A stretch of DNA of 64,000 nucleotides from Solirubrobacterales bacterium (lineage in GTDB: Bacteria; Actinomycetota; Thermoleophilia; Solirubrobacterales; Solirubrobacteraceae), in assembly GCA_026392255.1 (NCBI GenBank), contig JAPLCJ010000049.1, forward strand, positions 70,921-134,920, read 5' to 3'. Below are positions 3,896-56,370 of this stretch, piece by piece. Numbering within the stretch: the stretch's first letter is position 1; every line of letters begins with the position of its first letter. Below the pieces are notes generated by a model, which was given only the letters and a program-made list of their open reading frames with translations, searched no databases and was not told where the DNA came from. Made by a program: the position numbers and the translations under genes.

Positions 3896-4474
3896 TCAGC
3901 CTGCTGCGGCTGCGGCCTTGTGCCCGTTGGACTTGGCAAGCAGGTTGTCGAGGTGCTCCTCGGCCTCCTCGTCCTCCATGCTGAGGGCGTACTGAAGCTC
4001 TGAAGCAAGGTTGGTCTTCGCCTTGGTGAACATCTGCTTCTCACCTGTTGAAAGGCCCTTGTCAGTCTCGCGAACGGCAAGGTTGCGAACAACCTCGGCG
4101 ATCTCGAAAACATCACCGGTCTTGAGCTTGTCGCGATTGTGCTTGAAGCGACGGTTCCAGTTCTTTGGCATCTCGGAACACTCCGCGTTGATCAGACGCA
4201 GAAGCTTCTTCAAGGTCTTGTCATCCATGACCGGACGCAAACCGTTCTCCGCTGCATTGTCGGTGGGGAGCAGAATCGTCATGTCGTTGTGATGAATCCG
4301 GATGGTCAGGTATTCACGCTTCTTACCAACGACCTCCATCTTCTCCTTACGAACTACCTCGCCGGCACCGTGATGTGGTGAGACGACTGAGTCTCCGACT
4401 TTGAAGTCGATTGCTTCAACCTTGATTGCAATTTCAAGGTCTTCGATGCTTAGTTCTTCTTCGCTGCTTGGAAT
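3896..4474 (-). CDS. carD: CarD-type RNA polymerase-binding transcription factor (probable ATT start)
   Basis: CarD binds the RNA polymerase beta subunit and stabilises open complexes at promoters, notably for rRNA. The first in-frame ATG (4339) would delete half of the N-terminal Tudor-like polymerase-interaction domain, including DFKVGDSVVSPHHGAG. Upstream of it there is no in-frame ATG, GTG or TTG before the disA stop region. An ATT at 4474 sits five bases after a perfect GAGGAGG Shine-Dalgarno, giving 192 residues. The C-terminal DNA-binding part contains EMPKNWNRRFKHN, with the Trp that wedges the -10 element, and an acidic helix ends the protein. Lies between disA and ispD. The family call is certain; the ATT start is an inference (a sequencing error is the alternative). 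Confidence 0.93.
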   Translation of the reverse strand: MPSSEEELSIEDLEIAIKVEAIDFKVGDSVVSPHHGAGEVVRKEKMEVVGKKREYLTIRIHHNDMTILLPTDNAAENGLRPVMDDKTLKKLLRLINAECSEMPKNWNRRFKHNRDKLKTGDVFEIAEVVRNLAVRETDKGLSTGEKQMFTKAKTNLASELQYALSMEDEEAEEHLDNLLAKSNGHKAAAAAG

Positions 4475-4479
4475 GGTGT

Positions 4480-4486
4480 CCTCCTC
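4480..4486 (-). promoter_or_regulatory. Strong Shine-Dalgarno deciding the carD start
   Basis: GAGGAGG read on the minus strand, followed by the five-base spacer ACACC and then ATT at 4474-4472. Spacing is ideal for initiation. No standard start codon lies in frame near it. This supports the unusual ATT start for carD. Confidence 0.6.
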
Positions 4487-4517
4487 TTTCGGCAGGCGCC
4501 CCGATGGGCAAGCCTTG

Positions 4518-5636
4518 TCAGATCTGCAGGTAACGGTCCACGAGGTTGATTTCTTGAAGCCGGCGCAGACCCTCGCGGATGTCCTTAGCGCGCAGCTCTC
4601 CTACTCCTTCGATTGACTCCAGCTCACCCTCGGCTGAACCCAGCAGATCCTCGAGGCCATCGAAGGCCTCGACGATTCGCTGGACTACCAGCTTGGGAAG
4701 GCGTGGAATCCGACCGAGAACGCGGTAACCCCTAGGGGCGACTGCGTGATCGATCGTGTTGACCTTGCGGTCATGGCCGAGCAGCTCTGCGAGCCGCCCG
4801 AAGTCAAGAAGATCTTGGTGTGAAAGGCGTGCCAGCTGTTCCATCACACCGGCAAGCCCGTCGGGGCCCATCTCACGTACGTAATCATCGACGAGTGCGG
4901 CCTTGTCGGCAGCAACTCCCGTCAGGACCTCATCAAGCTGCATCTCAATCAGCCTGCCCTCAGTGCCGAGCTCAACGATGTGACGCTCGATCTCAGCGCC
5001 CATGCGCGTGACCATCTCACTGCGTTGCAGCACAGTCAGAACATCGTGAAGGGTGGCGCTGCTCTCAAATTCGAGTGCTGTGAGGCGAGTTGAGACCTGG
5101 TCCAAGCGGCTGCGGTATTTGTCGAGCGTGGCAAGAGCCTGATTGGCCTTGGCAAGAACCTGTGGAATGTCCTCAAGGATGTACTTGGAACCATCGGCGT
5201 AGAGCGAGACAACCTCACGGCGCTGAGAGACCGCGATGACAAGAGCGTCAGCTTGCTTGGAGAGCCGCTCAGCGGTCCTGTGACGTGTCCCCGTCTCGCT
5301 GGACATGATCGTCGGATCAGGGGTCATCTGGACGTTGGCCCAGATAATCCGCGTCGCACTCGGGTTCAGCAAAATAGCCCCGTCCATCTTCGCCACTTGG
5401 TAGAGGAATGCCGGTGAGTAGTCGATGTCAAGACGGATACCACCCGAGATCATCTGGGCAAGTTCCTCCGGATCACCGATCACGATCAGCGCGCCAGTTC
5501 GGGCATGAACGATGTTGTCAATGCCTTCTCTGAGAGCAGTGCCAGGGGCCACCATCTCGAGCGAACGGACCAGACCAGGGTCTTGACGCGAGTCTAGTTC
5601 TACTGTCTGATCGTCGCCTGATCGTCCCTGAATCAC
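4518..5636 (-). CDS. disA: Diadenylate cyclase DisA (c-di-AMP synthase, DNA-integrity scanner)
   Basis: Makes cyclic di-AMP from two ATP and slides along DNA, stopping at branched structures. The 372-residue protein has the N-terminal DAC domain with MDGAI (Asp85-Gly86-Ala87) and GTRHRTAERL (residues 116-125), both needed for catalysis. A helical linker follows, and then a C-terminal helix-hairpin-helix DNA-binding domain with SIEGVGELRAKDIREGL. The start is a GTG at 5636. It lies 89 bases after radA, the conserved pairing known from Bacillus and mycobacteria, where RadA inhibits DisA. Length and motifs show an intact enzyme. Confidence 0.96.
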   Translation of the reverse strand: MIQGRSGDDQTVELDSRQDPGLVRSLEMVAPGTALREGIDNIVHARTGALIVIGDPEELAQMISGGIRLDIDYSPAFLYQVAKMDGAILLNPSATRIIWANVQMTPDPTIMSSETGTRHRTAERLSKQADALVIAVSQRREVVSLYADGSKYILEDIPQVLAKANQALATLDKYRSRLDQVSTRLTALEFESSATLHDVLTVLQRSEMVTRMGAEIERHIVELGTEGRLIEMQLDEVLTGVAADKAALVDDYVREMGPDGLAGVMEQLARLSHQDLLDFGRLAELLGHDRKVNTIDHAVAPRGYRVLGRIPRLPKLVVQRIVEAFDGLEDLLGSAEGELESIEGVGELRAKDIREGLRRLQEINLVDRYLQI

Positions 5637-31759: not shown

Positions 31760-32215
31760 ATGCCAAAAGCAACAACATGGGTACTGACGTCCTCTCCGGA
31801 CAACCACACCGCCACGTGCGAGACGGGGTTCAGTGTGATCGGCCTCAAGGAACGCAACCGCAAACGTGCGGAGCGGATCGAGCCAGGTGACAGGATCGTT
31901 CTCTACCTGACAAAAGAGATGACCTTCGGAGGCTCAATCACTGTCACGGGTGAGATGTTCGAGGACCGAAAGAAAATCTGGCCGGGCAAGCCGGGCAACC
32001 CTGACCCGTACCCATGGCGCTTCCCAACCGAGCCAGAGGTTCAAATCGATCCCGACAGCCATGTTCCTGCCGAGAAGCTGAAGGACAAGATGCAGCACAT
32101 CCTCAAATGGCCAGCAGACCACTGGAAGTTGGCCTTCCAGGGTCAGATCCGCGAAGTAAGCGACGCCGACGCCAAGCTGCTTCTCAAAGAGCTCCGCGCG
32201 GCCAGCCGTGGCTGA
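31760..32215 (+). CDS. EVE-domain protein
   Basis: A 151-residue PUA-like fold protein. It begins with the family's TTWVLTSSPDNHTA, has FSVIGLKERNRKRAERIEPGDRIVLYL, the GSITVTGEMFEDR strand, and a Trp-rich groove (YPWRFPTEPEV; LKWPADHWKLAFQGQIREVS). EVE domains read modified bases in DNA or RNA, and are found in some defence and restriction systems; here it is alone, with no nuclease beside it. It is followed by a membrane-protein gene overlapping by eight bases. Confidence 0.8.
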   Translation: MPKATTWVLTSSPDNHTATCETGFSVIGLKERNRKRAERIEPGDRIVLYLTKEMTFGGSITVTGEMFEDRKKIWPGKPGNPDPYPWRFPTEPEVQIDPDSHVPAEKLKDKMQHILKWPADHWKLAFQGQIREVSDADAKLLLKELRAASRG

Positions 32216-55572: not shown

Positions 55573-56370
55573 CTATCCCCCGATCGGTGCCCTGGGATTT
55601 GCACCCCAAAAGAGTTGTGTTCCCAACATTCCAATCACGTGCACAAGCACGATGTTCAGAACCATTGATTTTGCCGTTGCAGTACCCACCCCTACAGGCC
55701 CTCCGCTCGCGTTGTAGCCGTAATAACAACCGACAAGCACAATGGTTGTGGCCATAGCCATTCCCTTGATTACGCTGTACAGAAGATCGGGCGGGTTTTG
55801 GAACATCCAGAAGATCAGCTGGTAGCCACCGGATGACACCTCGCCAATCTGTTGCACTACCGCGAGGTAACTGGCCAAGAACCCGGCGCCAACACCGCTT
55901 AGGTAGACAAACGGAAGGACCATCCAGGCTGCCAGCAGCTTCGTGGAGCAGAGGAATGTCAGGGATGGAACGCCCATTACCTCAAGCGCATCGATCTCAT
56001 CGCTGATCCGCATCGACCCAAGCTCGGCGACGATGCCCGTTCCGACCTTGGCGGACATCATGTACCCGAAGGAGTAGGGCACAAGCTCTCTCAGGTCGCA
56101 CCAGGCGGCGAACACGCCGGCGTAGGCGGGCGAGCCAACCGAGCGGTTGAAGTACGCGCCCTCAATGCCGCACTGGAGGCCGATAATGAAGATCAAGCTC
56201 CAGATCACGATCGTTGAGGAGAGGATCAGAATCCCGCACTGGCGCAGTGCCTCGCCGAAGTACTTGAAGACCTTGAGGCTGTAGACCTCGCCCATAATTC
56301 GCCCACAGAAGCGGAGCAGAACCCCAGTGGATTCCAGCCAACCATTCCCCTTGGTGTTGATCGCACTCAT
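55573..56370 (-). CDS. MlaE/YrbE-type permease (second)
   Basis: 265-residue membrane subunit with five or six segments. MlaE hallmarks: LVPYSFGYMMSAKVGTGIVA, ELGSMRISDEIDALEVMG (the cytoplasmic elbow that contacts the ATPase) and VGCYYGYNASGGPVGVGTAT with the conserved YGYxASGGPxGVG. It overlaps the first permease by four bases and ends two bases before the ATPase start. Confidence 0.93.
   Translation of the reverse strand: MSAINTKGNGWLESTGVLLRFCGRIMGEVYSLKVFKYFGEALRQCGILILSSTIVIWSLIFIIGLQCGIEGAYFNRSVGSPAYAGVFAAWCDLRELVPYSFGYMMSAKVGTGIVAELGSMRISDEIDALEVMGVPSLTFLCSTKLLAAWMVLPFVYLSGVGAGFLASYLAVVQQIGEVSSGGYQLIFWMFQNPPDLLYSVIKGMAMATTIVLVGCYYGYNASGGPVGVGTATAKSMVLNIVLVHVIGMLGTQLFWGANPRAPIGG

Follow-up and report, generated by a model that had tools for sequence, protein, structure and literature searches.

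The gene carD encodes a general regulator of RNA polymerase, and in a Solirubrobacterales bacterium (GenBank assembly GCA_026392255.1; 1.66 Mb in 61 contigs) it appears to be translated from the codon ATT. The stretch of DNA analysed here, which we call the window, comprises 64,000 nucleotides of contig JAPLCJ010000049.1 (positions 70,921 to 134,920), and carD lies on its minus strand in a frame that is open after a TAG at 4603 and ends with a TGA at 3896. When this frame was scanned for ATG, GTG, TTG, CTG, ATT, ATC and ATA, none of the three canonical codons (ATG, GTG and TTG) was present between that TAG and an ATG at 4339, as an earlier note on this DNA had claimed; the candidates ahead of 4339 are CTG 4495, ATT 4474, ATC 4447, ATT 4432, ATC 4426 and ATC 4411. 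The ATG at 4339 lies inside the RNA-polymerase-interacting domain (RID), which would be cut by a start there. The sequence GAAAGAGGAGGACACC precedes the ATT at 4474–4472, and the Shine-Dalgarno (SD) motif GAGGAGG (4480–4486) ends five bases short of that codon, again as the note had described. Read from the ATT, the coding sequence (3896–4474) has 192 codons and a stop, and the whole 192-residue product matches Pfam CarD_TRCF_RID at residues 24–83 (1.7e-13; 50.9 bits against a cut-off of 23) and CarD_C at residues 90–176 (1.4e-31; 108.8 bits against a cut-off of 23.1). The name CarD rests on Pfam, because NCBIfam gave no CarD match for this protein and mfd alone, at 27 against an 800-bit cut-off. 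Residues 2–22 (4409–4471) form an acidic N-terminal extension ahead of DFKVGD, with proline as residue 2.

The same kind of start recurs across the order, which bears out the note's reading of ATT as the carD start. Our order sample comprised 73 genomes, among which the start was readable in 70, giving 71 carD copies (G005 has two, L016 and L093, with ATT at the start site in both); G018 and G024, known from C-terminal fragments only, G178, where the contig of L069 ends inside the extension, and second carD matches of G178 and G186 stand outside this tally. The first order search had matched carD in 41 of 41 genomes, the C-terminal fragments of G018 and G024 included. The start was taken as the codon with the best SD match among the seven scanned, 17–52 codons before the conserved D-F-K-V-G-D; four sites were placed by hand, namely L020, where the rule chose none, and L012, L083 and L084, where it chose a codon within the end of the upstream gene disA (TTG for L083). 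The codon at this site is ATT in 48 copies, ATC in 17, ATG in five and GTG in one, while ATA and CTG occur in none of the 71. AUU or AUC (AUY) is consequently found in 65/71 copies, 64/70 genomes, 38/39 genera and all four sampled families, and genera g1, g8, g15 and g35 each hold both forms. An SD match of 6–8 bases precedes the codon in 58 of 61 AUY sites picked by the rule, and the unusual codon and the strong SD are conserved together across species of the order. ATG is confined to genus g20, whose five copies all carry it at the corresponding place behind AGGAGG, with a spacing of six in two copies and four in the other three; the next residue is Thr in four of them and Pro in the fifth.

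No canonical codon fits the conserved carD frame in 16 of the 71 copies (the window and 15 others), counting from the upstream stop, or from the end of the fetched stretch, to the conserved domain. That stop lies just 4–6 codons ahead of the AUY codon in L005, L006, L011, L016, L022, L029 and L066. L012, L079 and L092 have tandem AUY codons, either of which could serve as the start. A set of 21 loci titled Solirubrobacterales, Solirubrobacteraceae, Conexibacter, Actinomycetes, Actinomycetota or Thermoleophilia, which overlaps with the order genomes, contains 18 with ATT or ATC behind an SD, among them Conexibacter CPCC 206217 and 205762 (L033 and L034; RefSeq NZ_ accessions, not titled as metagenome-assembled genomes); L047 and L049, both titled Thermoleophilia, are canonical and L050 is truncated. 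Comparison shows, at the level of sequence, where the start lies, that it is conserved and that in many genomes other starts are excluded.

Two further properties of the site set it apart from an ordinary isoleucine codon. The ratio of ATT to ATC is 48:17 at the start site, compared with 38:392 among the isoleucine codons in the bodies of the same genes (Fisher, 9e-29) and 23:110 among those of the extension (1.5e-14); T occupies 8.4% of fourfold sites. These tests ignore relatedness among copies and their figures therefore overstate the evidence, a caveat against which may be set the exchange of ATT and ATC within four genera. Moreover, 62 of the 65 AUY copies have Pro, Ser, Thr or Ala as residue 2, whereas the rest of the extension contains 11.4% Pro, Ser and Thr together and 7.7% Ala, being otherwise 38% Glu and Asp. 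Residues of these four kinds permit removal of the initiator methionine, and the bias accordingly fits a true start. Use of AUU or AUC as the carD start is, from these comparisons, strongly supported.

Beyond the order, carD begins conventionally in the loci sampled. In class outgroups from other families (a sample without family f10), a script placed ATG, GTG or TTG 1–3 codons before the conserved F/Y in 51/52 carD loci, and the remaining locus, L121, has TTG when read by eye; a phylum search, from whose longer match list 21 loci (L212–L232) were fetched, gave a canonical start in 21/21, 19 of which lie outside the class. The mycobacterial carD start is likewise canonical. Since outgroup starts sit so close to the conserved F/Y, the roughly 20-residue acidic extension, present in order carD and absent from the sampled outgroups, is peculiar to the order in these samples, and the odd start and the extension occur together. 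The extension is longer, at 34–51 residues, in L014, L039, L046, L062, L063, L067 and L087. A tree of 110 CarD fragments and 82 columns, drawn with midpoint rooting, places three changes between AUY and canonical starts, or 18 when ATT and ATC are counted separately; one gain followed by two losses would be the natural reading of the three.

We consider it likely that the AUU or AUC codon is a real start, that selection has preserved it and that it holds back CarD synthesis, probably by way of discrimination by initiation factor 3 (IF3). Ordinary initiator tRNA would read the codon, recruited by the strong SD. The weak codon would be maintained by selection, having arisen, most simply, once near the order's base, and would act as a built-in brake, IF3 rejecting many of the initiation complexes formed on AUU or AUC; CarD output would then be a small fraction of the yield from AUG, at a rate responsive to IF3 and to the conditions of initiation. 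We infer an initiator methionine at the AUY codon, a low yield, IF3 dependence and a regulatory response, and regard the link through IF3 to initiation capacity that the note had suggested as plausible by analogy.

The analogies are of several kinds. The infC gene, which is autoregulated by IF3, starts with ATT in E. coli and ATC in Streptomyces (PMC5472188), a type of start common to infC and order carD; infC itself encodes IF3, whereas carD encodes a transcription regulator for which IF3 dependence would hold by analogy and which, in this order, coexists with a canonical infC. Closer in function is Streptomyces sigR, also an actinobacterial transcription regulator with an odd start and a very strong SD (AGGAGGTG), which IF3 represses from a GTC start and whose odd start is found in 32 of 34 species, as GTT in two (PMC5472188). 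The sigR case concerns GTC and GTT in one genus and was tested by codon changes and through IF3, while that of carD concerns AUU and AUC in an order of 39 sampled genera and comes from sequence only. In S. aureus, conserved AUU and AUA starts with an extended SD give about 10% of the AUG yield, although the AUA start of ccpN reaches up to 30% in rich medium (PMC13009471). Here cvfC1 (AUU) and ccpN (AUA; catabolite control protein N, also a transcription regulator) resemble carD in their conserved odd start and extended SD, but belong to other gene families and another phylum, and their starts, unlike that of carD, were located by ribosome profiling and assayed in reporter constructs. E. coli pcnB, a different gene, shares the AUU start, which limits its translation (PMC1780047; also a reference in PMC13009471). 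The lower yield expected of AUY carD follows from the measured S. aureus cases, and IF3 as the discriminator from the infC and sigR precedents.

Several observations weigh against this interpretation. The case for the start comes from comparison of sequences. In 10 of the 65 AUY copies a canonical in-frame codon with an SD match of at least 5 occurs upstream of the conserved domain, as in L004 of G002, where an ATG lies seven codons downstream of the ATC, although some of these codons fall within the last part of disA; in L026 an ATG precedes the AUY by two codons. The GTG copy (L073 of G192) offers only canonical candidates, an ATG and a GTG close together behind a weak SD, in a genus that otherwise has AUY. 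Four AUY sites were placed by hand, and L020 is without an SD match of four or more. The tree is weakly resolved by its 82 columns (of its 105 inner branches, 58 are open and eight starred), and its drawing does not place the outgroups outside all members of the order. Finally, a weak start could set a low level of CarD with no response to conditions.

This last alternative, in which AUU or AUC is indeed the start and a fixed low-yield setting, keeping CarD low relative to DisA on a shared message, for instance, without any response to IF3, has in our estimation something less than an even chance. It gains from the position of carD, 43 bases behind the disA stop on the same strand, from the absence of a medium effect on the AUU gene cvfC1 (PMC13009471), and from the canonical infC of the order loci read. 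Yet a weaker SD would suffice for such a setting, and the SD is strong at nearly all rule-picked sites; the tested precedents, infC and sigR, join the odd codon to control by IF3. That a weak codon persists next to a strong SD, in place of an AUG next to a weak one, would be predicted by the IF3 model and not by a simple low-level model.

That translation truly starts elsewhere, at a downstream canonical codon, at an upstream CTG, or in an upstream frame by way of a frameshift (for which the window's other frames were read as a check), we hold to be improbable. Some relatives do have an ATG four codons downstream (ATC ACA GAG CTA ATG), and the CTG at 4495 is in frame in the window; against this, the 16 copies described above have no canonical codon before the conserved domain, the near relatives L036, L043 and L051 have ATC, ACG or GTG in place of that downstream ATG, and what recurs behind an SD is the AUY site. 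We reject a start elsewhere for the family overall and not for each member, since the SD-backed canonical codons in 10 copies and the ATG of L026 mean that single members may start differently. An assembly or sequencing error at 4472–4474, which the earlier note had named as the plain alternative and to which a genome in 61 contigs might lend itself, has next to no chance, for ATT or ATC also stands in a 97%-identical relative and throughout the 64 genomes counted above, including the single-contig G011, G196, G150 and G167, and in the two Conexibacter RefSeq loci.

A brake on CarD synthesis at the start codon would have a physiological rationale, because mycobacterial CarD activates rRNA transcription and its level is itself controlled, by antisense RNA and Clp (PMC8820732). 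There too the level is set after transcription and partly at translation; antisense RNA and proteolysis differ from the start-codon mechanism proposed for the order. Querying of the open-access literature, part of which was unspecific (matching 'cardiac' and the like), turned up no account of carD starting at a non-canonical codon, and as far as these searches show a conserved non-canonical start is new for carD, which joins a small known kind of genes. AUU or AUC starts maintained by selection are known from few bacterial genes, and here a general RNA-polymerase regulator would have one order-wide, offering a single-codon test of whether the fidelity of translation initiation feeds back on transcription. 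A practical prediction is that gene callers limited to ATG, GTG and TTG will shorten carD or miss it altogether in these genomes.

The same-strand neighbours in the window are radA, disA, carD, ispD and ispF, of which the upstream neighbour disA occupies 4518–5636 on the minus strand (NCBIfam NF010009, 5.2e-139). A structured leader as an explanation was rejected, the fold at 4420–4530 being ordinary in the window (z 0.02). When the window's 221 stop-to-stop frames of at least 100 codons were scanned over their first 80 codons, four sites, carD included, had ATT, ATC or ATA behind an SD match of at least six bases; in-frame canonical codons lie upstream of those at 31895 and 57405, and that at 55834 lies inside another listed frame on the same strand (55573–56370), leaving carD as the only convincing case in the window. 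Across the whole genome, in a survey of strong-SD sites, 36 sites fit RAGGAGG-N4-6-ATY, compared with 17 for the reversed pattern, and among the 30 that were read as loci a simple open reading frame rule left two possible starts, that of carD and that of a frame of 62 codons. No general use of AUY starts by the genome was seen, either in the window or at these 30 of 36 sites; a looser pattern (452 sites against 186 reversed) was not used, as its reversed form differs in base make-up.

The infC gene was found in 40 of 41 searched order genomes, and 30 of these matches were fetched as loci, one of which went unread; its start is canonical in all 29 readable loci. On these loci, shared control with infC in the order is rejected, and the infC loop is not simply shared with carD. 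With a stricter infC motif more loci went unmatched, and that result was not used. It is conceivable, though we think it unlikely, that an IF3-gated carD has taken the place of the AUU codon of infC, in which case CarD, as a global activator of stable-RNA promoters, would read the balance of initiation factor and free 30S subunits and tie rRNA synthesis to initiation capacity order-wide, the IF3 gene having no loop of its own. In class outgroups, 25 of 30 infC loci were readable and 24 of the 25 have a canonical codon; the exception, L266 (infC of G119), has TAG at the usual start place, at about position 1468, where its relative L277 has TTG, which points to an error or another start. Many infC loci of the order (L146–L175) begin with CTA-GTG-CCG-GTC or similar, with no visible SD, roughly 60 bases before INERIR, and often have CTTGAC about 20–25 bases upstream; order infC is perhaps leaderless or overlaps a promoter.
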